Positions 14,062 through 36,840 of a stretch of DNA of 37,267 nucleotides are shown piece after piece. The stretch lies in assembly GCA_014381725.1 (NCBI GenBank), contig JACNLC010000080.1:1-37267 (forward strand), in the 5' to 3' direction. The stretch's first letter is position 1; every line of letters begins with the position of its first letter. Below the pieces are notes generated by a model. The model saw only the letters and a program-made list of their open reading frames with translations. It did no database searches and was not told where the DNA came from. The stretch is from Fidelibacterota bacterium. Lineage in GTDB: Bacteria > Fidelibacterota > Marinisomatia > SCGC-AAA003-L08 > JACNLC01. The position numbers were made by a program, and so were the translations under genes.

Positions 14062-17000
14062 TTATTTTATCAACAATAATTTTTGAGTCTCTGTAAAACT
14101 GCTCACTTGTAATTTTGCAAAATAAATTCCACTTGAGTATTCACTTGCATCCCAAACTACTTCGTGATAACCTGCTTCTTGAATACTTCCTGTACTAACT
14201 AGCTTATCAACAAGTTGCCCATTCATATTGTAAATAGAAAGAAGCACAGAGCTTGGAGCTTGGAGTTGATAACTGATAGTTGTACTCGGATTGAAAGGAT
14301 TCGGATAATTTCCAATTAAACTGAAATTATCTACTATTACTTCACTATCAGAACGAAGTAATATTGGTTCTAAATCATTTCCAAGATTAGCATTAACTTC
14401 AAATTGGATATTTTCAGAAATCACATATTCTTCTTCAGAATCTGCATTGAAATATCTAAAATTGAGTTCGTCTCCATTTTCACCATAAATCATAAGGTTG
14501 AAAGTGTATTTACCTGAAAGAGGAAATTTTGTTGCCTGAACAACTCCTCGGCATTCTTCCCCAGAAAATATCCCCAACACATCACCATCTGAAATGGAAT
14601 TTACAGTAGCAGTCGCTGTCATATTGTGCTCATAATTGTGAGGATTTACAAACCAGTGCAAATCAGATTCATTTGGCAAGCTGATTTTCATTAATTCAGG
14701 TGTACCATAAATTAATGTAGATCCAGTTAGCATATCAAGCATATAGCCATCACCTGGATTCATGAAATCTAAACCATACCAGCCAAAACCTTCATAGTAA
14801 GTAGCAAATCCAGTTTGATTTTTTATCATCTCTCCATTAGCTCCTATACTTTCTAAAGCAGAATTCAGATTATTTGCTTGTTGTGGAAGGTAACCGATCC
14901 AATTCCAACCACCAACTAATTCTATTGGTAAATTTATGTAATCGGCTGGAGAACCTTCAAAATCTAGCGAACCATCTACAATCATTTGTATCATATACAT
15001 ACTTGTCACGTCAATAAAATCTAAACCATACCAACCGAAATCTGCATAGTAAGTAGCAAATCCAGTTTGATTTTTTATCATCTCTGCATTTGTGCCCAAT
15101 GAAGCCAGAACTGTATTTAAACTCATATCGTCTCCACTTACATTAACAGAAAACCAGTTCCAACCAGCTGCAAATGATAATGAAATCTGTACTGATGAAG
15201 TTGTAGAAAATTCTAAAGGATCTATATCATTACCAATAATATCATTTGCTACAAAAGTGATACTCTGATTAATGTTTTCGTAAACTAAATCATCTGAATA
15301 ATCATAAATTTTGAATGCCACAGTTTCCCCTGAAGACTGATTGCTATAAATCATCATATTTACAGTATATCGTCCAGTTACTGGGAAGTAGCTTGGATTT
15401 GCAATACCACGACATTCGGTACCAACAAATGCCCCAAGCAAATCATTTTCATCTATGGATTCTTCGCCTTCAATAGACAACAATCCTGCTAGAGTTAAAT
15501 TAAATTCATATAGTGGTACATCTACGCTCCAGTTAGGATAATTTGGGTTTAGAATAGCATGCACATCGAAGGGTTCTATATCGTTACCAATAATATCATT
15601 TGCTGTAAATTCGATTGTTTCTGTAACTTGAGTGTACACAAAATCTTCTGAATAGTCATAGGCTTTGAATGACATCTCTTCCCCAGAAGACTGATTGCTA
15701 TAAATCATCATATTTACAGTATATCGTCCAGTTACAGGGAAGTAACTTGGACTTGCAACCCCCCGACATTCGTTACCAACAAATGCCCCAAGCAAATCAT
15801 TTTCATCTACGGATTCTTCACCTTCAATAAACAACAACCCTGCTAGAGTTAAATTAAATTCATATTGTGGTACATCTACGATCCAGTCAGGATAATTTGG
15901 GGGTTGAGCTCCGCCTTCAACGGTAAGAGTTACAGGAACGGATATTGTTGCTCCTGCATTATGAGCAATTTCAATGCTTGAAGAATATGTTCCTTCAGCT
16001 AAACTCCCCGAATCAAATGCCACAGAGATATTATCTATTTCACCGGCATTACAAGAACCAGACGATGGATTAACTGATAACCAATTTCCACTAGAAACCG
16101 ACAAACTATAAGACAAAGTTGAACCAGAACCACCTGAGTTTGTAATCTGTAAAGTTTGGTTAGCAGTTTCATTAGTTGATAGCAATTGAGTAAAAGACAC
16201 AGGATCAACTGTAATGTCTGCAACTGGTACAGCAGTTAAACTAAAATAGCTATCACTATAATCGTAAACTGATGAAGTGTTCGAATCAAGAATTTTTACT
16301 CTATAATTATCAGCTATATCATAATCAGATGGAATTACCCATGGATAACTACCATCATTAGTAGTATTACTTACGATTGTTGCATAATAACTTGTTCCTT
16401 GGTAAAGTTGGATTTTAATATTGCTACTTAAATTAACACTTGTCCAGCTAATATTATTAGATGTTCCAACTTCCCAGTCTTCACCTCCGTTCGGTGCTGT
16501 AACTGTAAGTGATGGAGGTGCAGATAGTGTAAAATTACTATTACTATAATCATAAGTTGCAGTATTTCCAGTATCAGAAATTTTGATTTTGTAATAACTT
16601 GATAACTCATAACTTTCTGGGATTGTCCAAGAATAACTACCATCATCGGATGTACTATTAGTTATGATCGCATAAAAACTACTGTTTTTATAGAGTTGAA
16701 TTTTTACATAGTTTCCAGTATTCGAGCTTGTCCAAGTAATTGGATGAGAAGTTCCCAATTCCCAATCTTCCCCTCCATTTGGATCTGTTACAGTTATAAC
16801 AGGTTCTACTATTCCGTTATAAGTTCCGTCTAATGTTGTTGCACCACTATTAGTCGGATCTAGCCAGTCTTTAAGTCGAGTTGATGAACTACTTCCATCC
16901 CATCCATAAGAGAATTTCCCATATAAATCATAAGTGTTTGGATCTTCACATGGTAAATCTGGACCTCCAGATAATTGTCCGACAACTCGTCCAGCACTAT

Positions 17001-18138
17001 TAAAAACTGGTGAGCCAGATGAACCTCCAGCGGTTCCACCGCTATCCCATTCTAACATCCAGTGAGTACCCCATGGTCCTCCGTTCCAATTAGAACTCGA
17101 TGCATAATCATTGTCAAAATTGATTTTTTTAGGATCACCGCCTGGATGATGAACACCTACCGAAATCTGAGGAGTTGAGCCAGAATTATCCCAACCAGCA
17201 TAAAACACATTCCAAGAATCAGGAATATTGTCATTAATTTCTAATAATGCAAAATCTGGACTCATATCATACGATCTTGCTTTTGTTGATGAACTATATG
17301 CATATGATCCATAACTTGCATAAGTTCCGCTACAAGAAGTTGTTTCGTAATTAAAATAGAACCTAAATGTACCTGGATTTTCTCCATCGACACAGTGATC
17401 GGCTGTTAGAAAATATGGGGTAAGGTCTTGTGATGTATTGTTTACCATTGAGCCACTACAAATGTATCCACCCATATCTAACCAAGAAGCTGCATCAATT
17501 TGTTCTTGGTATGGACTAGCCTCAGAGCAAACTACATTTATGCCACAAGCTCGATCTCTATCCGAATTGCTAAAATTCATAATATCGCGATAATCGTGAA
17601 TTATTTCTGATATATTGATAGTTGCACTTCTGTTGGAATTAGCTGGATGATAATATTCCAAAATCGTCATATCACCTGCTACTAATGGCGTAGCAAAAAT
17701 ACGGTCTTCAGAATTATTTAATTCGGTATAAGCTCCATAAACCATTTCATAATCTTCGTTGTAAACAAAAAACGAGCTTCCATTAGGTAAATAAAAGTCC
17801 TTATACTCTAGGGAAATTGCATAAGCATTTTCGCTAATAATTGCTAGCCTCCAAATTTTATCACCATTCTTTAATGTTTCCCAAGTTCCGCTATTATCCA
17901 TAGAATAATCGACAAGGAATTTATGCCCATAACGGAATGGAGTTCCTACCGGACGCACTTCATCTTCTGCAAATAGCTTTTCTGTATCAATAGGTGGCAT
18001 CGTTATCAATTGAATTTCCGAGCGTACTTCGAACTGAGAACTATATGGTTCTCCACCCTGATTTAATTGAGACCACCCGAATGAACCAATCATAAAAAAC
18101 AATATCATTGCCATTATCAATCTATACTTCGTTTTCAT
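14062..18138 (-). CDS. Large secreted trypsin-like serine protease with repeat modules and FCB-type C-terminal sorting domain
   Basis: A 1358-residue extracellular protein. Residues 1-23 are a signal peptide. About 195-440 is an S1-family protease close in pattern to lysyl endopeptidases: H248 (LTADHCVDG), D295 (SPDFALLEI) and S374 (GGSSGSPVF), with paired cysteines. Two modules at about 446-540 and 542-636 start with PNGGEDWE-[LV]GTS. A BACON-like beta domain (about 640-740) follows. Then come two near-identical 118-residue units (748-862, 866-980), two 84-residue GWNW units (from 992 and 1077), a third, diverged copy of the 118-type unit (1160-1262), and a C-terminal sorting-like domain (1270-1358) with GNYPNPFNPSTTISYQL. 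The end resembles type IX secretion domains, so outer-membrane export and surface attachment or release are likely. No secretion-machinery gene is in the window. Substrate preference is unknown. Confidence 0.9.
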   Translation of the reverse strand: MKTKYRLIMAMILFFMIGSFGWSQLNQGGEPYSSQFEVRSEIQLITMPPIDTEKLFAEDEVRPVGTPFRYGHKFLVDYSMDNSGTWETLKNGDKIWRLAIISENAYAISLEYKDFYLPNGSSFFVYNEDYEMVYGAYTELNNSEDRIFATPLVAGDMTILEYYHPANSNRSATINISEIIHDYRDIMNFSNSDRDRACGINVVCSEASPYQEQIDAASWLDMGGYICSGSMVNNTSQDLTPYFLTADHCVDGENPGTFRFYFNYETTSCSGTYASYGSYAYSSSTKARSYDMSPDFALLEINDNIPDSWNVFYAGWDNSGSTPQISVGVHHPGGDPKKINFDNDYASSSNWNGGPWGTHWMLEWDSGGTAGGSSGSPVFNSAGRVVGQLSGGPDLPCEDPNTYDLYGKFSYGWDGSSSSTRLKDWLDPTNSGATTLDGTYNGIVEPVITVTDPNGGEDWELGTSHPITWTSSNTGNYVKIQLYKNSSFYAIITNSTSDDGSYSWTIPESYELSSYYKIKISDTGNTATYDYSNSNFTLSAPPSLTVTAPNGGEDWEVGTSNNISWTSVNLSSNIKIQLYQGTSYYATIVSNTTNDGSYPWVIPSDYDIADNYRVKILDSNTSSVYDYSDSYFSLTAVPVADITVDPVSFTQLLSTNETANQTLQITNSGGSGSTLSYSLSVSSGNWLSVNPSSGSCNAGEIDNISVAFDSGSLAEGTYSSSIEIAHNAGATISVPVTLTVEGGAQPPNYPDWIVDVPQYEFNLTLAGLLFIEGEESVDENDLLGAFVGNECRGVASPSYFPVTGRYTVNMMIYSNQSSGEEMSFKAYDYSEDFVYTQVTETIEFTANDIIGNDIEPFDVHAILNPNYPNWSVDVPLYEFNLTLAGLLSIEGEESIDENDLLGAFVGTECRGIANPSYFPVTGRYTVNMMIYSNQSSGETVAFKIYDYSDDLVYENINQSITFVANDIIGNDIDPLEFSTTSSVQISLSFAAGWNWFSVNVSGDDMSLNTVLASLGTNAEMIKNQTGFATYYADFGWYGLDFIDVTSMYMIQMIVDGSLDFEGSPADYINLPIELVGGWNWIGYLPQQANNLNSALESIGANGEMIKNQTGFATYYEGFGWYGLDFMNPGDGYMLDMLTGSTLIYGTPELMKISLPNESDLHWFVNPHNYEHNMTATATVNSISDGDVLGIFSGEECRGVVQATKFPLSGKYTFNLMIYGENGDELNFRYFNADSEEEYVISENIQFEVNANLGNDLEPILLRSDSEVIVDNFSLIGNYPNPFNPSTTISYQLQAPSSVLLSIYNMNGQLVDKLVSTGSIQEAGYHEVVWDASEYSSGIYFAKLQVSSFTETQKLLLIK
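14698..15165 (-). repeat. Second tandem duplication, 84-residue GWNW modules, in the secreted protease
   Basis: Two units beginning GWNW (residues 992 and 1077) share the run EMIKNQTGFATYY followed by xxFGWYGLDF, with an 84-codon offset. The DNA around the TTTTTTATCATCTC stretch is shared too. They sit between the second and third copies of the larger module. Confidence 0.75.
15199..15897 (-). repeat. Tandem 354-base duplication in the secreted protease
   Basis: Codons 748-862 (15553-15897) and 866-980 (15199-15543) encode nearly identical modules sharing EFNLTLAGLL, DENDLLGAFVG and SYFPVTGRYTVNMMIYSNQS. The DNA is also highly alike, for instance around TACCAATAATATCATTTGCT, so the copy is recent or is being homogenised. 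The offset is 118 codons. Confidence 0.85.
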
Positions 18139-18485
18139 TATTTACCTTCTCTTTCTTTTTCAATTAAAATTTATAGTGATAAATTACCTACACTAATTCT
18201 ATTACTTTGTAATGTAAATCACAAGTATTGAAATATGTTGTTACAATTTGATTAATTTATCAGATTTAGAGTTATCCGAGCATCTTTGTCACTATAATTC
18301 ATTATCGGGATGATTTTGGTGAATAATCTACTTAACAAAATATTAAATTTCGCCTTACAAAATTTCTGTTGTCATTTTGGATATTAATATCTTAATTTAC
18401 CCTTTAGTAATTCATTGTAAGTTGGTGATTATATTACCAGTTTACTATATAACTTTTTAAAATAATACCAAAAAGGAAATCTTTT
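18139..18485. promoter_or_regulatory. 347-base divergent intergenic region between the secreted protease and the Rrf2 operon
   Basis: There is no gene here. The region must carry promoters for both directions. It holds a perfect 12-base palindrome GATATTAATATC (18380-18391) and, nearer the Rrf2 gene, a 29-base dyad (18417-18445, listed separately). TTGGTGA occurs twice (18316-18322 and 18423-18428 region). Ribosome sites are AAGGT before the protease ATG and AAAGGA before the Rrf2 ATG. I could not assign a convincing -35/-10 pair. Confidence 0.55.
18417..18445 (+). promoter_or_regulatory. 29-base dyad upstream of Rrf2 gene: candidate operator or 5' UTR hairpin
   Basis: The arm GTAAGTTGGTGAT (18417-18429) faces ATTACCAGTTTAC (18433-18445) across a 3-base centre. 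As DNA, 10 of 13 positions are symmetric. As RNA, the other three become G-U pairs, so all 13 can pair. It lies 40 bases before the Rrf2 start. Rrf2-family regulators bind dyads of similar length, so autoregulation is plausible but untested. No U-run follows, which argues against a terminator. Confidence 0.5.
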
Positions 18486-18929
18486 ATGATATATTCAAAA
18501 TCTGCAGAATATGCAATTCAAGCAATGATATATCTTGCTGAACATCAAGATGAGCCAAAAACTATGGTTAGTAAAATAGCAGAAGAATATAATATCCCTG
18601 TTCATTTTTTATCAAAGTTAGTACAAACCTTAGCTAAACATCATCTAATTAAATCGTATCGCGGAAGAAATGGTGGCATAAAACTAAACAAACCTGCACG
18701 GGACATTCGCGTTATTGATATTGTTTATGCAATTGATGGACCTCCTCCTGAAATTGAAATGTGTGTTATAGGTTTAGATGAATGCACAGACAATGTTGCT
18801 TGTCCTCTTCATAATAATTGGAAGATTATCAAGGAAAATATTCGAGTTTTACTAGGACACGAAAATCTAGAACATTTAGCGGAAGAAATTATTAAGAAAC
18901 GGGAAGATCTTCGTGGAGAAACTATCTAA
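18486..18929 (+). CDS. Rrf2-family transcriptional regulator with iron-sulfur-type cysteines
   Basis: A 147-residue winged-helix regulator beginning MIYSKSAEYAIQAMIYLAEH, the family opening. The recognition region is IPVHFLSKLVQTLAKHHLIK (38-57), and the wing RGRNGGIKL. Three cysteines, C93-x6-C100-x5-C106, match the cluster-binding set of IscR, NsrR and RsrR, so it probably senses iron-sulfur status, nitric oxide or redox. It heads a short operon with a hemerythrin-like gene 14 bases on and pcm after that. A nitrosative-stress (NsrR-like) role is the best fit because di-iron RIC-type proteins are common NsrR targets. Its sensed signal cannot be read from sequence. Confidence 0.92.
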   Translation: MIYSKSAEYAIQAMIYLAEHQDEPKTMVSKIAEEYNIPVHFLSKLVQTLAKHHLIKSYRGRNGGIKLNKPARDIRVIDIVYAIDGPPPEIEMCVIGLDECTDNVACPLHNNWKIIKENIRVLLGHENLEHLAEEIIKKREDLRGETI

Positions 18930-18943
18930 TCTGGTTTTAACTA

Positions 18944-19543
18944 ATGAGCAACATACACGCAAAGAAACACTACGGAGAACCAAACTACGAATGTGATATT
19001 TGTAAAGAATATATTAATTTACTTCCAAAAGAGCATTTAATACATAGATTCTATAGTGAACACGAAATCATTTTGAAATATCTATCCGATTTAAATGAAG
19101 TTCGAAAGAATATTGATAAACTTGATACTCCGCTAGACCACCCTGAGTTATTTGTTCAACTTATCAAACTTGCTGAACAATTATTGGAGGTTGAGAAACA
19201 CCATCTACGAGAAGAAACAATATTATTCCCAGAGCTTCAAAAACGAAACATTAACCAATATCATTTTGTTTTGAAATCTGAACACTCATTCCTAAAAGAT
19301 TATAAAGAGAACTTTCTCGAATTTGTCAAAAATTTAGAAGCAACAGATTTCATCTCATACAAGACTCAGATGAATTATATGTCGAACGGCATAATCGGAT
19401 TGCTTCGCGAACATATCTACAAGGAAAACAAATTCGTTTTCCCAATGGCTCTTGAAGTAATTAAAGATGAAAATGATTGGAAATTACTCAAAGAGAAAAG
19501 TGATACTGTCGGGTATTCTTTCTACATTCCTGATGTAAAATAG
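18944..19543 (+). CDS. Hemerythrin-like di-iron protein
   Basis: A 199-residue protein with a four-helix hemerythrin-type domain. Candidate iron ligands are H40 (FYSEHEII), H86/H87 with E90/E91 (EVEKHHLREETILFPEL), H114 (KSEHSFLKDY) and H157 with E161 (LREHIYKENKFVFP). The HHLREETILFPEL block resembles the hemerythrin part of DUF438 proteins and the iron-sulfur repair proteins RIC/YtfE/ScdA. An N-terminal CDIC (C17, C20) could be a redox pair or metal site. It likely handles oxygen, nitric oxide or iron release during cluster repair. The Rrf2 gene directly upstream supports an iron-sulfur or nitrosative-stress role. No clear ribosome site precedes it, suggesting coupling to the upstream gene. 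Confidence 0.83.
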   Translation: MSNIHAKKHYGEPNYECDICKEYINLLPKEHLIHRFYSEHEIILKYLSDLNEVRKNIDKLDTPLDHPELFVQLIKLAEQLLEVEKHHLREETILFPELQKRNINQYHFVLKSEHSFLKDYKENFLEFVKNLEATDFISYKTQMNYMSNGIIGLLREHIYKENKFVFPMALEVIKDENDWKLLKEKSDTVGYSFYIPDVK

Positions 19544-19565
19544 TATTCAACCCAAGTTCGTTAAA

Positions 19566-20165
19566 ATGAGCGACCCATATAATCTTAAAGATAAGAAAAT
19601 CACTAATCAAGCTGTATTGAAAGCATTTTCTAAAACTACTAGAAAGTTGTTTATTCCAAAGGGCTTTAAATCATTTGCAGATAATGACGAACCGCTCCCA
19701 ATTAGTGAAGGGCAGACCATAAGTCAACCCAGTTTGGTAGCTTATATGACTCAACTGTTAGATGTTAATAGAAATCACACAGTACTTGAAATTGGCACGG
19801 GCTCAGGATTCCAAACAGCTATTTTATCTCACTTAGCAAAACATATAACAACTGTAGAAATAATATCATCCCTGTTTCATAAAGCAAAGATTCTGTTGCT
19901 CAAACTCGGATATACAAATATCACTTGTTTGTTAGCTGACGACCACCAGCATAAATCACAAAAGTTTGATAGAATTATGGTTACTGCAGCAGCCAAAGAC
20001 ATCCCAAATAAGTTGATTGAACAGTTAAAGTCTCCCGGCAAAATGGTCATCCCAATTGGCAAAGAACATCAAATCCAAATCCTTATGCTGATAGAAAAAG
20101 ACCGGTCTGGAAATGTTAACGAAACATCTTCTATACCAGTAAGATTTGTACCATTGAAATCATAA
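19566..20165 (+). CDS. pcm: Protein-L-isoaspartate O-methyltransferase
   Basis: A 199-residue SAM-dependent methyltransferase that starts repair of isoaspartyl damage in aged proteins. It has the substrate-site motif PISEGQTISQPSLVAYMTQL (45-64), SAM motif I VLEIGTGSGFQTAIL (73-87) and the FDRIMVTAAA strand (134-143). The usual GDG turn between these reads ADDHQHK, a local deviation. The length is slightly shorter than the common 205-220. It lies 22 bases after the hemerythrin-like gene and meets the minus-strand kinase gene tail to tail 36 bases later. Its place in an Rrf2-led set suggests stress-linked expression of protein repair. Confidence 0.92.
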   Translation: MSDPYNLKDKKITNQAVLKAFSKTTRKLFIPKGFKSFADNDEPLPISEGQTISQPSLVAYMTQLLDVNRNHTVLEIGTGSGFQTAILSHLAKHITTVEIISSLFHKAKILLLKLGYTNITCLLADDHQHKSQKFDRIMVTAAAKDIPNKLIEQLKSPGKMVIPIGKEHQIQILMLIEKDRSGNVNETSSIPVRFVPLKS

Positions 20166-20201: not shown

Positions 20202-21680
20202 TCAATAATTGAATTCACTACTGCCAATAAACTCGCGAAGAATTGAAATTCCAGGTACAATTTCTCCATTTAGTGGTTCGAAAAACTCTAAAAGTGTTTT
20301 CAATCTCTCAACATCTTTGAATAAACTAAAATCAGACGAGACACTTTTCAATAATGGAAGTGCGTAACTAGAAAGAACTGGGAGCTCATAAGCTAGAGCA
20401 GAATTAAATAAAAAGTCAGCTTTTTCTTGAAATGGAAAAATATTTTGTTCTTCGCCAATTCTTACAGAATTCCAGCGCTCAAGAGTTTCTTCTGGAGAAT
20501 AACCACGGAATTGAATATCACGCACCATTCGCCTTAATAAGCGATTATCGGATGTTGAAACTCTATGATCTGAATCAATAATTAACTGAGTAATAGCACT
20601 CACATAAATTCGCTGAACTTGCCCATCGGCAATCAAAGAAGTTAGTTTTGGATTAAGTCCGTGAATTCCCTCTAAAATTACAAAATCATTTTCTCCGATT
20701 TCAATAAACTTATCTGTATCCGAACCCCCACCAACATCATAATTAAATTTGCGTACAGGTATTCTATCTCCGCCTAGAAGTAGATTAATTCGTTCACTTA
20801 ACAATTTCTTATCAAGTACACTAAATGCTTCAAAATCCTGGAAACCATTTTCATCAACAGGAATTTCCTCTCTGCTTAAGAAATAGTCATCCATTGAAAT
20901 TTGATGAGTTTTAAATCCATTAACTTTAAGTTGAATATTTAGTCTTTTTGCAAATGTGGTTTTACCGGAAGATGAAGGACCTGCTATAATAACAACTCGT
21001 TTTTTTGGAAATCCTATAGCTAAACGGTCAGCAATATGACTAATTTTCTTCTCGTGGAGCCCTTCAGAAATCCAGACTAATTCTTTAATTCCATTTTTGT
21101 TAATATGATCGTTTAGATTGGGGATGCTTTCTATACCAAGTATATTCCCCCATTGTTCAAACTCTTCTATAATTGAAAATAAATTTGGGCAATCCTTGAA
21201 TTTAGGAATGTTAATTGGGTTCGCAATTGTAGGAAATCTTAACAAAAGCCCATTATTATATTTGCGGATTTCAAATTCTTGTAATGCATTTTTATCAGTT
21301 GCCATTGGCTGTATGCGATAATCTAGTTTGTCCCCAAATTTTATTACAGGAACAGGATCAACCTGCCATTTCTTCAGGTTTTTTGATTTGTTTTGGAATC
21401 CTGTTTTAGTAAAAAAAGATAAAATCTCAGCTAATGGTAGAGAAGTCAATTCAATAGCTTGGCTATTATTTAAATATTCTCTGATTTTGAGTGATAGAGC
21501 TGATACATCTTGTTCTGATATTGGGTCCCAAGAATTACTATGGCAAAACAACCCATCAGCGAAAGAGTGCTCAATTATAAGAAAACTAGGCGAAAACAAT
21601 TCTCTGTAAGCAGATGATAGCAAAAATGCTAGCGTTGCCTGATTTTCTGATAATTTAGATATATTTCTTATATTTTTCAT
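20202..21680 (-). CDS. Nucleoside (uridine) kinase-like protein fused to a ThrRS-like second additional domain
   Basis: A 492-residue protein from the start at 21680. The N-terminal half resembles the editing-associated region of threonyl-tRNA synthetase (IIEHSFADGLFCH; LDYRIQPMATDKNALQEFEI; LLLRFP). The C-terminal half is a uridine kinase/phosphoribulokinase P-loop domain, with GPSSSGKT at 234-241, then ISMDDYFLSREEIPVDENG, LEGIHGLNP and DNRLLRRMVRD. This architecture is a known family usually called nucleoside or uridine kinase. Many members carry a TGS domain first; none is evident here. Upstream ATG codons exist (21827, 21737), but that extension is hydrophobic, overlaps the divergent gene's start and fits no family. 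The phosphate acceptor is uncertain. Confidence 0.87.
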   Translation of the reverse strand: MKNIRNISKLSENQATLAFLLSSAYRELFSPSFLIIEHSFADGLFCHSNSWDPISEQDVSALSLKIREYLNNSQAIELTSLPLAEILSFFTKTGFQNKSKNLKKWQVDPVPVIKFGDKLDYRIQPMATDKNALQEFEIRKYNNGLLLRFPTIANPINIPKFKDCPNLFSIIEEFEQWGNILGIESIPNLNDHINKNGIKELVWISEGLHEKKISHIADRLAIGFPKKRVVIIAGPSSSGKTTFAKRLNIQLKVNGFKTHQISMDDYFLSREEIPVDENGFQDFEAFSVLDKKLLSERINLLLGGDRIPVRKFNYDVGGGSDTDKFIEIGENDFVILEGIHGLNPKLTSLIADGQVQRIYVSAITQLIIDSDHRVSTSDNRLLRRMVRDIQFRGYSPEETLERWNSVRIGEEQNIFPFQEKADFLFNSALAYELPVLSSYALPLLKSVSSDFSLFKDVERLKTLLEFFEPLNGEIVPGISILREFIGSSEFNY

Positions 21681-32905: not shown

Positions 32906-33180
32906 AACCACAAATAATTTAAAAAAATATATATTTACCCTATTTGGATAATGATATCTGATATCTAGTTGTAGCGATTTAGATACACCCAAACTTATCT
33001 ATAAAGCTACAAAGTGTATTATGTAAAAAAGACAAACTAAATTCTATCTTATTTATTGGTGAAACTATTTACAAATTATAAGTTTGCAACTTTTCGTAAA
33101 GTCTATAAAAAATCCTAATAATAAATTGTTGTGTATTCCCAAATCCTTGTAAATTTATAAATGGATATGGGTGTCCAATT
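32906..33180 (+). promoter_or_regulatory. 275-base region upstream of the second Rrf2 gene with several symmetric elements
   Basis: No gene was seen. It holds GATATCTGATATC (32953-32965), a two-part stem-loop at 32969-33012, and smaller dyads AAGTT-TGC-AACTT (33080-33092) and ACTTT-TCGT-AAAGT (33089-33102). A possible promoter is TTGTGT near 33128 with TATAAAT near 33158, which is weak. TTGGTGA at 33056-33062 also occurs upstream of the first Rrf2 gene. Confidence 0.45.
32969..33012 (+). promoter_or_regulatory. Two-part stem-loop upstream of Rrf2/OFA/acs
   Basis: TTGTAGC (32969-32975) pairs with GCTACAA (33006-33012), and inside it TAGATA (32980-32985) pairs with TATCTA (32996-33001) around the 10-base loop CACCCAAACT. 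A small internal loop separates the stems. No U-run follows, so it is not a standard terminator of the upstream operon. It may be an operator or a structured leader. Confidence 0.42.
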
Positions 33181-33603
33181 ATGCTATTAGCGTTGTATTC
33201 AAAATCGGTAAAATATGCCATTAGTGCAATGGCATGTTTGGCATTGATTTATGGAAAAGAGTTAAAGAAAGTAAAAGATATTGCAAGAGAATGTAGAATC
33301 CCAAATCAATATCTTGCAAAATTAATTAGTGATTTGCGACAAGCTCATCTAGTAAAAGCAGTGCGTGGTCCCACAGGAGGAGTCAAACTCTCAAGAAACC
33401 CGTCCGATATTAAAATATTTGAAGTTATTTCTGCAGTAAACGAACCTCCTATCAATGATATGGAATGTCTTTTAGGACTTGGTTGTTGTGGCGATGACGA
33501 TGAATGTCCGTTTCATGAAACTTGGGCAGAAATAAGAAACAAAATTCATTTAGATATTGAAAAAAAAACATTAGCAGATTTTGTTAAAATGAAAAATAAG
33601 TAA
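33181..33603 (+). CDS. Second Rrf2-family transcriptional regulator
   Basis: A 140-residue winged-helix regulator, paralogous to that at 18486-18929. It opens LYSKSVKYAISAMACLALIY, with recognition region IPNQYLAKLISDLRQAHLVK and wing RGPTGGVKL. The cysteine cluster is C96, C102/C103 and C109, so an iron-sulfur cluster is likely. The ATG gives MLLALYSKSV; a TTG four codons on would give the usual family start, but the GGATATGGG before the ATG makes the ATG more likely. The OFA transporter starts 20 bases downstream and acs follows, so it probably controls them. The sensed signal is unknown. Confidence 0.9.
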   Translation: MLLALYSKSVKYAISAMACLALIYGKELKKVKDIARECRIPNQYLAKLISDLRQAHLVKAVRGPTGGVKLSRNPSDIKIFEVISAVNEPPINDMECLLGLGCCGDDDECPFHETWAEIRNKIHLDIEKKTLADFVKMKNK

Positions 33604-33623
33604 AATAATGAGAAAGGAAGTAA

Positions 33624-34889
33624 ATGAAAATTAATAATAGATGGCTCGTAGTTGTTGGAGCAATATTGATTCAATTGTGCTTAGGTGCAATTTATGCATG
33701 GTCTGTATTTACGCCAGCACTGAAAGATGCCGGATGGACAAAAGTAGATACGCAAGTTGTGTTTTCTGTCGGACTAGCATTTTTTGCAATTGTAATGGTC
33801 TGGGCTGGGAAAAAACTTGGTGTTTGGGGGCCACGAAAACTTGCTACGATAAGTGCAATTGTTCTTGGCTTGGGTTATACACTTGCTGGATTATTCGGAG
33901 GGACTAATTTCTGGGCTTTGGTAATCCTAATTGGAGTCATTGGCGGTGCAGGAATCGGTATCGGATATGTGGTTCCTATTGCTGTTGGTATGCGATGGTT
34001 CCCCGATAAAAAAGGGATGATTACAGGACTAGCAGTTGCCGGATTTGGTTTTGGCGCGATGCTTTGGGTTAAACTAGCAGGTGCATGGGGGCATTTAATT
34101 TCAAATGTAGGGCTATCCAACACATTTACAATTTACGGAATTGCTTTCGCTGCATTAGTTTTAATTGGTGGAATTTGGATGGTATTTCCACCCGAAGGAT
34201 ATAAACCAGAAGGATGGGAACCACCAAAAGCAAATGATGATGGTTCTGCTGTTGCTGGTTCAGTTGACTATCACAGCAGTGATATGTTAAGTACTCCTCA
34301 GTTCTTTATGATTTTCTTAACATTTGTATTTAGTGCAGGTGCTGGTTTAATGTCAATTGGTTTAATGAAACTCTACCCAATGGAAGCACTGCAGGGAGCT
34401 GGATATTCTATGGCAGAAGCAAGTGCGATTGCTGGAACTGCAATGGCAGTATTTTTCAGTTTAGCAAATGGATTTGGTAGAATTATCTGGGGAACTTTAA
34501 GCGATAAGCTTGGAAGAAAACAATCTATAATTATAATGACAGCGACTCAAGGTGTAATTGTAATTTTATTCACATCTATGGCAAGTACTCCAGCTTTACT
34601 TTATTTGGGCGCAACTTTAATAGGATTTAACTTTGGCGGAAATTTTGCACTGTTCCCGACCATCACTGCCGATACATTCGGTGCAAAAAATATTGGTGAA
34701 AATTATCCATTTGTTTTCTTGGCATACGGAGTTGGCGGAATATTCGGGCCTATACTTGGCGGAAGACTGGGTGATATAGGTAATTTTCCGTTAGCATTTA
34801 CAATTTGTGGTGTTGCTTGTCTTGTAGGTGCAATTCTAATTGCGACTGTTAAACCAGCAAAAAATAATAAAACAATAGATAAAAAATAG
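33624..34889 (+). CDS. OFA-family major facilitator transporter
   Basis: A 421-residue, 12-helix MFS protein. The start [29 protein letters not shown] is the classic opening of the oxalate/formate antiporter (OFA) group. [18 protein letters not shown] near the middle is the MFS loop motif. Many OFA proteins carry small carboxylates such as formate, oxalate or acetate-like acids. The acetyl-CoA synthetase gene 16 bases downstream makes acetate (or another short acid) the likely substrate. A strong AAAGGAAG ribosome site precedes the ATG. It is part of the Rrf2-OFA-acs set. Confidence 0.9.
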
Positions 34890-34905
34890 AAAGGAAAGTA
34901 CAATA

Positions 34906-36840
34906 ATGTCAAAAGTATATAAAGCAGATTACAGAGATGCAAAAATTGCACATATCCCAGATATGGAAACATACAATGCTCTCTATCAAAAATCAATTAA
35001 TGATCCAGATGCGTTTTGGGCTGAACAAGCTGAACGATTAACTTGGAGCAAAAAATGGGATAAGGTATCAGATGTTGATTTGAAAGATGCAAAAATCAAA
35101 TGGTTTGAAGGCGGAAAATTAAATGTAGCTTACAACTGTTTGGATCGCCATGTTGAAGCAGGTCATGGGGACCAAGTTGCTTTAATTTGGGAAGGAAATA
35201 ATCCAGAAGAAGATAAAACTTTTACATATAAAGAATTGACTGACGAAGTTTCAAAATTCGCTAATGCACTTAAACTAAATGGTGTTGTAAAGGGTGACAG
35301 AGTTTGTTTGTATATGCAAATGATTCCTGAACTTGCTATTGCTATGTTAGCTTGTGCGAGAATTGGTGCAGTACATTCAATCGTTTTTGGTGCATTTTCA
35401 CCTGATTCACTTCGCGACAGAATCAATGATTCTGACTGTAAAATTTTAGTAACACAAGATACAGGTGTTCGTGGTAAAAAATTGAATATCCCGATGAAAG
35501 CAAATGCAGACAAAGCAGTTGCTGATACTCCATCTATTCAAAATGTATTTGTTGTAAAACGAACCGGTGCAGAAGTTGAAATGTCTGATGGCCGTGACCT
35601 TTGGTGGCACGATGAAATGGCAAAAGTGGATGCAAACTGTCCACCTGAAGAAATGGATGCAGAAGATCCACTATTCATTCTTTATACTTCAGGTTCTACA
35701 GGAAAACCAAAAGGAATATTACATACAACAGGTGGTTATCTGACTTTTGCATCATTTACTCACGAACTAATTTTTGATTATCAAAAAGATGATGTTTACT
35801 GGTGTACCGCTGATATCGGTTGGGTAACAGGTCACTCTTATATTGTGTATGGACCTCTTGCAAATAGAGCTAAAACAATGATGTTTGAAGGTGTCCCAAA
35901 TTATCCTGATTTTGGTCGATTCTGGCAAATTGTAGAAAAACATAAAGTTAATAGTTTTTATACAGCACCTACAGCTCTCCGTGCGTTAATGGCACAAGGA
36001 GATGAGTTTGTAACTCCACACGATCGTTCAAGCTTAAAACTATTAGGTACAGTCGGTGAACCAATTAAAGAACCAGAATGGTTATGGTATTACAATCTTG
36101 TTGGAGAGGGTAGATGCCCTGTTGTTGATACTTGGTGGCAAACAGAAACTGGTGGAATTTTGATTACTCCATTGCCAGCAGTAACACCATTAAAACCGGG
36201 TTCAGCAACACTTCCGTTTTTTGGAGTTAAACCTGTCATCTTAGATCAAGAAGGTAACGAAAAGGATGGTAATGGTGTTGAAGGATTATTGGCAATTAAA
36301 ACCAGTTGGCCTGGACAGATGCGAACTTTGTATGGTGACCATAAACGATTCTTCGAAACATATTTCCAAATGTATCCTGGATATTACTTCACAGGCGATG
36401 GAGCAAAACGAGATGAAGACGGTTATTATTGGATTACTGGCCGAGTAGATGATGTGCTGAATGTTTCAGGTCACAGAATTGGTACAGCTGAAGTTGAAGG
36501 TGGAATTGGAAAAGCTGATGGTGTAGCAGAAGCGGCTGTTGTTGGTTATCCTCACGATATTAAAGGACAAGGTATTTATGCTTATGTTACTTTAATGAGA
36601 GGAATTGAACCAAGCGATGATATCAAAAGAGATATACTCAAAACAGTCACAGTGGATATTGGTCCACACGCAAAACCTGACAAAATCCAGTTTACTCCAG
36701 CATTACCAAAAACTCGTTCAGGTAAAATTATGCGCAGAATTTTGCGTAAGATTGCAGAGAATGAGATTGATTCACTTGGTGATATTTCAACATTAGCTGA
36801 TCCGTCAGTTGTTGATTCACTAGTGGAAGGAAGACAGTAA
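34906..36840 (+). CDS. acs: Acetyl-CoA synthetase (AMP-forming)
   Basis: A 644-residue enzyme converting acetate, ATP and CoA to acetyl-CoA, AMP and pyrophosphate, of full length. Motifs are [20 protein letters not shown] (P-loop), [10 protein letters not shown] (acyl and adenylate site), [20 protein letters not shown] (hinge) and [11 protein letters not shown] with K607, the lysine acetylated in known Acs. AAGGAAAG lies before the ATG. It is downstream of the OFA transporter, so uptake and activation of acetate look linked. It ends at a strong terminator. Propionyl-CoA synthetase is a less likely alternative, since the WWQTETGG motif and overall N-terminus fit Acs. Confidence 0.96.

Follow-up and report, generated by a model that had tools for sequence, protein, structure and literature searches.

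A conserved Rrf2-hemerythrin gene pair with a PCMT gene behind it in one Fidelibacterota lineage

Introduction

The closest described systems to the locus considered here pair Rrf2-type regulators with hemerythrin-type proteins. In proteobacteria, the NsrR regulon includes dnrN/ytfE (PMC1274295). The denitrification region of Thermus scotoductus has both Rrf2 and hemerythrin genes (PMC3235269), and the Thermus nsrR-nsrS-nsrT system adds to its regulator a ScdA-domain protein (NsrS) and a cupin (NsrT), with the operator CTTGACCNNGGTCATGG (PMC5748679). A hemerythrin-PAS protein, Ddes_1165, is induced by NO (PMC5701242).

We have analysed a stretch of 37,267 nucleotides (contig JACNLC010000080.1, hereafter the window) from the genome of a Fidelibacterota bacterium (2.18 Mb, 88 contigs, 98% complete). 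It carries an Rrf2-family regulator gene (rrf2), a hemerythrin-domain gene (hhe) and a protein-L-isoaspartate O-methyltransferase gene (PCMT) in close succession, and we have compared this arrangement with that in related genomes.

Results

The three genes and the other features discussed below are located in Table 1. The gap between rrf2 and hhe is exactly 14 nt and that between hhe and PCMT exactly 22 nt. A scan of both gaps recognised no terminator-like site and found no RNA structure beyond that of shuffled sequences, and sigma-70 promoter-like matches across the trio region are no more frequent than chance (10 found, 11.4 expected). Judged by this spacing, the three genes are probably read as one transcript. 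On the other side of rrf2, the minus strand encodes a secreted-looking protein in which the sequence suggests a serine-protease-like region, repeats and a C-terminal sorting-type domain.

Table 1. Positions of the features within the window.
Feature	Position	Strand	Remarks
Secreted-looking protein	14062..18138	-	1358 aa; upstream of rrf2
Predicted Rrf2 operator GGATATTAATATCT, palindrome GATATTAATATC	18379..18392	+	94 nt upstream of rrf2
rrf2, Rrf2-family Fe-S-type regulator	18486..18929	+	147 aa; Pfam, TIGR00738
hhe, hemerythrin-domain (HHE) di-iron-type protein, PF0695-like	18944..19543	+	199 aa; Pfam, 3cax match
PCMT, protein-L-isoaspartate O-methyltransferase	19566..20165	+	199 aa; PF01135, PRK00312
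Uridine-kinase-like gene (UK; PRK family), flank	20202..21680	-	PF00485; convergent with PCMT
Operator-like palindrome (GGATA-type)	32946..32959		just upstream of rrf2b
Operator-like palindrome (GGATA-type)	33163..33176		just upstream of rrf2b
rrf2b, second Rrf2 gene	33181..33603	+	about 38% identical to rrf2
rrf2b and the two genes after it	33181..36840		MFS (OFA-like) transporter, then acetyl-CoA synthetase-like gene

The regulator has a clear Rrf2 domain (PF02082: E 1.8e-32, 112.7 bits, cut-off 30) and passes the family model TIGR00738 (109.9 bits, cut-off 73.3). Every one of 53 Rrf2 homologues has C93, C100 and C106, H109 is kept in 52 and E8 in 46, and this complete ligand set makes it probable that the protein carries an Fe-S cluster. 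It could not be assigned to a named regulator: the NsrR model (NF008240) gives 60.4 bits where 182 are required and the IscR model (TIGR02010) 69.8 where 207.6 are required, RirA and CymR also fall below their NCBIfam cut-offs, and the sub-cut-off scores for the SUF regulator, IscR, RirA and NsrR are similar. We therefore regard it as an Fe-S-type Rrf2 protein outside these named ones. The CxxH arrangement (C106-H109) resembles the ligand set of IscR. The acidic residue at position 8 resembles Asp8 of Streptomyces NsrR (PMC5411485). The window genome has three Rrf2 genes in all; the four other genomes of the family carry an extra Rrf2 paralogue (69-80% identical to that of the window) adjoining a DegP/HtrA-like protease gene, and none of the three is a copy of it.

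The hhe product matches the hemerythrin domain (PF01814: E 2e-12, 48.1 bits, cut-off 25.3), which is the sole Pfam match. Its AlphaFold model is all-helical (mean pLDDT 82), a helix bundle whose only strong fold match is 3cax (PF0695; E 3.7e-7, query TM-score 0.78), also the strongest sequence match in the PDB. Seven candidate ligands, H31, H40, H86, E90, H114, H157 and E161, are invariant in 25 of 25 proteins, and the protein probably has a di-iron site. We considered whether it is a YtfE/RIC protein and rejected this: the two NCBIfam models score 24.7 bits against 254 (YtfE) and 21.3 against 204.7, the Pfam search finds no ScdA_N domain, and YtfE ranks only 50th among the fold matches (query TM-score 0.32). 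The N-terminal CxxC (C17/C20) was likewise discarded as an analogue of YtfE Cys30/31, its residues not being conserved. With the 3cax fold and the invariant ligands on one side and the missing ScdA_N and failed cut-offs on the other, the product belongs to the hemerythrin group and not to RIC.

The third product is a Pcm protein. It matches PF01135 (E 5.2e-49), exceeds the cut-offs of the equivalog PRK00312 (205.7 bits, cut-off 188) and of TIGR00080 (163.1 bits, cut-off 159.05), and aligns over its full length with E. coli Pcm (3lbf), SAM motif EIGTGSGFQTAIL included. It is the sole match to an isoaspartate-repair enzyme in the window genome; PIMT is a housekeeping enzyme. Much of the preliminary description of this DNA is thus borne out: the ORF coordinates agree exactly with the three plus-strand genes and the 14- and 22-base gaps that it gave, and the three regulator cysteines, the hemerythrin-type His/Glu ligands of the second product and the PCMT motifs of the third are all present as it had them. 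Its pairing of an NsrR/IscR-type regulator with a 'RIC/YtfE-like' partner holds in part, in that a di-iron-type protein does adjoin the Rrf2 gene, but the RIC/YtfE label is too strong for a PF0695-like protein.

Five genomes of the family were compared, among them the window genome, which is the sole representative of its genus. Its wider relatives include two Candidatus Neomarinimicrobiota MAGs, and one of these shares an identical hemerythrin protein with G195, a genome of the same order, which makes that phylum the most likely source of the window. Each of the other four has an orthologue of rrf2 (79-83% identical) and of hhe (48-53%), and the two genes are adjacent in all five. In a tree, the five family hemerythrins form a single clade with support of 100/98, as do the five linked Rrf2 proteins with 80/83. 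The order rrf2-hhe-PCMT is found in the window genome alone, and among 30 other PCMT loci of the phylum, compared with up to 1.5 kb of flanking sequence, there is none with a gene for an Rrf2 or hemerythrin protein nearby. The three genes are accordingly not a conserved unit: rrf2-hhe is an old conserved pair, and PCMT lies outside it.

The relatives also show where PCMT otherwise resides. In two of them (G122 and G075), the closest PCMT (51%) lies on a contig other than that of rrf2-hhe, directly behind a gene that we call mobA-like from a sequence motif rather than a family search; the two genes overlap by 8 nt in G122 and are 1 nt apart in G075. In the window genome, the mobA-like gene sits on another contig. 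Behind PCMT in G122, the convergent UK-GNAT block of the window recurs, so that UK marks a PCMT-UK-GNAT synteny block. In G117 and G167, the same convergent order stands directly behind hhe: the ends of hhe and UK overlap, and there is no PCMT between them. Elsewhere in its genome, G117 carries a more distant PCMT; a search of G167 (77% complete) found none. These separate placements identify the PCMT-UK-GNAT block and the rrf2-hhe pair as separately conserved modules, which appear to have been joined by a rearrangement in the window lineage. Perhaps the joining extended to the G117/G167 lineage, with PCMT lost later.

Upstream of rrf2, we predict an operator with the consensus GGATAnnnnTATCY. 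A GATAnnnnTATC-like site, degenerate in one case, occupies the corresponding position in all five family genomes, whose Rrf2 upstream regions have little else in common. Of the 53 regions upstream of Rrf2 genes, eight contain the strict palindrome, against an expectation of 0.11 from shuffled sequences; four of these come from beyond the family that first drew attention to the motif. Among 887 other upstream regions, 13 contain it. In the window genome, where sites were judged by pattern search and short loci, we counted 17 distinct exact sites, almost all of them within ORFs, and therefore dismissed a large genome-wide regulon; the only clearly intergenic ones precede the two Rrf2 genes of the window, which points to autoregulation and a narrow regulon. 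A search upstream of cydA in this genome, allowing up to one mismatch, found no operator-like site. The rrf2b locus, with its two palindromes, is possibly a second self-regulated operon. Elsewhere, the same palindrome precedes a HemN-like gene (L120, 3558-3571) and a gene in the vicinity of one for a cytochrome c-like protein (L124, 12501-12514), a hint that the regulon may be wider in other families.

Beyond the family, seven relatives in the class have an orthologous Rrf2 gene (55-58% identity) within about 5 kb of a hemerythrin gene; the selection required both genes to match one contig, so that the loci attest linkage but not how frequent it is. Cytochrome c oxidase subunits are encoded between the two genes in five of them, and NarJ- and NarH-like genes are close by in two. 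A further locus (L089) has, in order, an Rrf2 gene, a true RIC gene (ScdA_N plus hemerythrin), a hemerythrin gene and genes that by sequence resemble those of Moco synthesis; the same Moco-type genes stand beside the rrf2-hhe pair in G122. An uncharacterised 150-residue membrane-type protein adjoins the hemerythrin gene in four of the class loci. The window genome encodes cytochrome bd instead, and neither COX1/NorB-type proteins nor Hcp were found in it, so that the respiratory context of the relatives cannot be transferred to it directly. The conservation of the pair and its association, in relatives, with genes of respiration and nitrate genes make a role in NO, O2 or Fe-S stress reasonable.

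Discussion

The explanation that we favour, and hold to be fairly probable, is that a self-repressing Fe-S Rrf2 regulator and its hemerythrin partner form an ancestral unit to which PCMT is a recent passenger. The regulator, NsrR/IscR-like in design, would bind GGATAnnnnTATCY and repress its own short operon. Loss of the predicted cluster, or its nitrosylation or oxidation by NO or O2, would lift repression, and the hemerythrin-like protein so induced could use its putative di-iron site to bind or reduce the gas, or could supply iron, protecting Fe-S and respiratory enzymes. The rearrangement in the window lineage would have set the only PCMT of the genome behind the pair, where it is probably co-transcribed. 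We count against this explanation the presence of the strict palindrome in just eight of 53 Rrf2 upstream regions, the position of most exact sites of the genome inside ORFs and the respiratory equipment of the window genome, which differs from that around the pair in relatives.

The signal could be a different one: in the manner of IscR or RirA, the regulator may respond to the supply of iron or Fe-S and not to NO or O2, while the hemerythrin-like protein may donate or store iron. The likeness of the CxxH to the IscR ligands and the similar sub-cut-off scores across the named regulators would fit such a sensor, but those class-level neighbours that Pfam names serve respiration, and not one is a gene of Fe-S assembly; we regard iron sensing as a tentative possibility. 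The passenger status of PCMT could also go further than we propose, with PCMT a mere neighbour that owes most of its transcription to a promoter of its own or to an internal one, and rrf2-hhe a two-gene operon. This would suit a housekeeping enzyme that holds its synteny with UK-GNAT while its upstream partner switches between mobA and rrf2-hhe from genus to genus. We nevertheless think it unlikely, given the narrow space between hhe and PCMT and the promoter-like matches at chance level.

The preliminary description had gone the other way and proposed that isoaspartate repair has become a functional part of an NO or Fe-S stress response, one signal inducing both cluster protection and protein repair, and had made conservation of the three-gene order in related genomes the test of the idea. 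The 22-nt gap, in which no terminator was found, is compatible with it, the control of a sole repair enzyme would matter, and the Rrf2 paralogue near a DegP/HtrA-like protease in four family genomes places another protein-quality gene beside such a regulator. However, just one of the five family genomes has this order, and none of the 30 other loci does, which weakens the proposal; moreover, G117 and G167 have rrf2-hhe with no PCMT behind it, and our literature search found no paper linking the three genes, nor PCMT to Rrf2, hemerythrin or nitrosative stress. We now judge it improbable. A version confined to the window genus, in which the sole repair enzyme has recently come under the control of a self-regulated Rrf2 promoter that senses through an Fe-S cluster, a capture still at an early stage, and in which gas or redox stress would induce repair along with di-iron protection, seems to us quite unlikely.

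Returning to the ancestral pair with its passenger, proximity in a single genome is easily taken as function, and here the relatives split the trio into an old pair and a recent neighbour. What usefully remains is an Rrf2-hemerythrin pair of Neomarinimicrobiota-type bacteria, tied to respiration genes and with a concrete predicted operator. We conclude that rrf2-hhe makes a meaningful and conserved module for stress or respiration, of which analogues have been described (PMC1274295, PMC3235269, PMC5748679, PMC5701242). Like NsrR with dnrN/ytfE, it joins an Rrf2 protein with the three-cysteine Fe-S layout to a di-iron, hemerythrin-type target, and the tie of the NsrR regulon to nitrogen-oxide metabolism is matched by the nitrate genes near the pair in relatives; unlike NsrR, the regulator falls far below the equivalog cut-off, its predicted operator is GGATAnnnnTATCY and its partner is a hemerythrin, not RIC. 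The Thermus systems also group Rrf2 with hemerythrin or RIC-type genes, with oxidase or denitrification genes alongside, but they differ in the ScdA-domain NsrS, the cupin NsrT, the operator CTTGACCNNGGTCATGG and the lack of PCMT. Ddes_1165 / DVU2590 and PF0695 (3cax) are hemerythrin-domain proteins as is the hhe product, Ddes_1165 being likened by domain alone; the hhe product is a short stand-alone form without the PAS domain of Ddes_1165 / DVU2590. PCMT corresponds to E. coli Pcm from end to end, and it is the neighbourhood that differs, rrf2-hhe here and mobA in two relatives. The three-gene unit is thus mostly ordinary, with one lineage-specific twist, the PCMT gene behind the pair.
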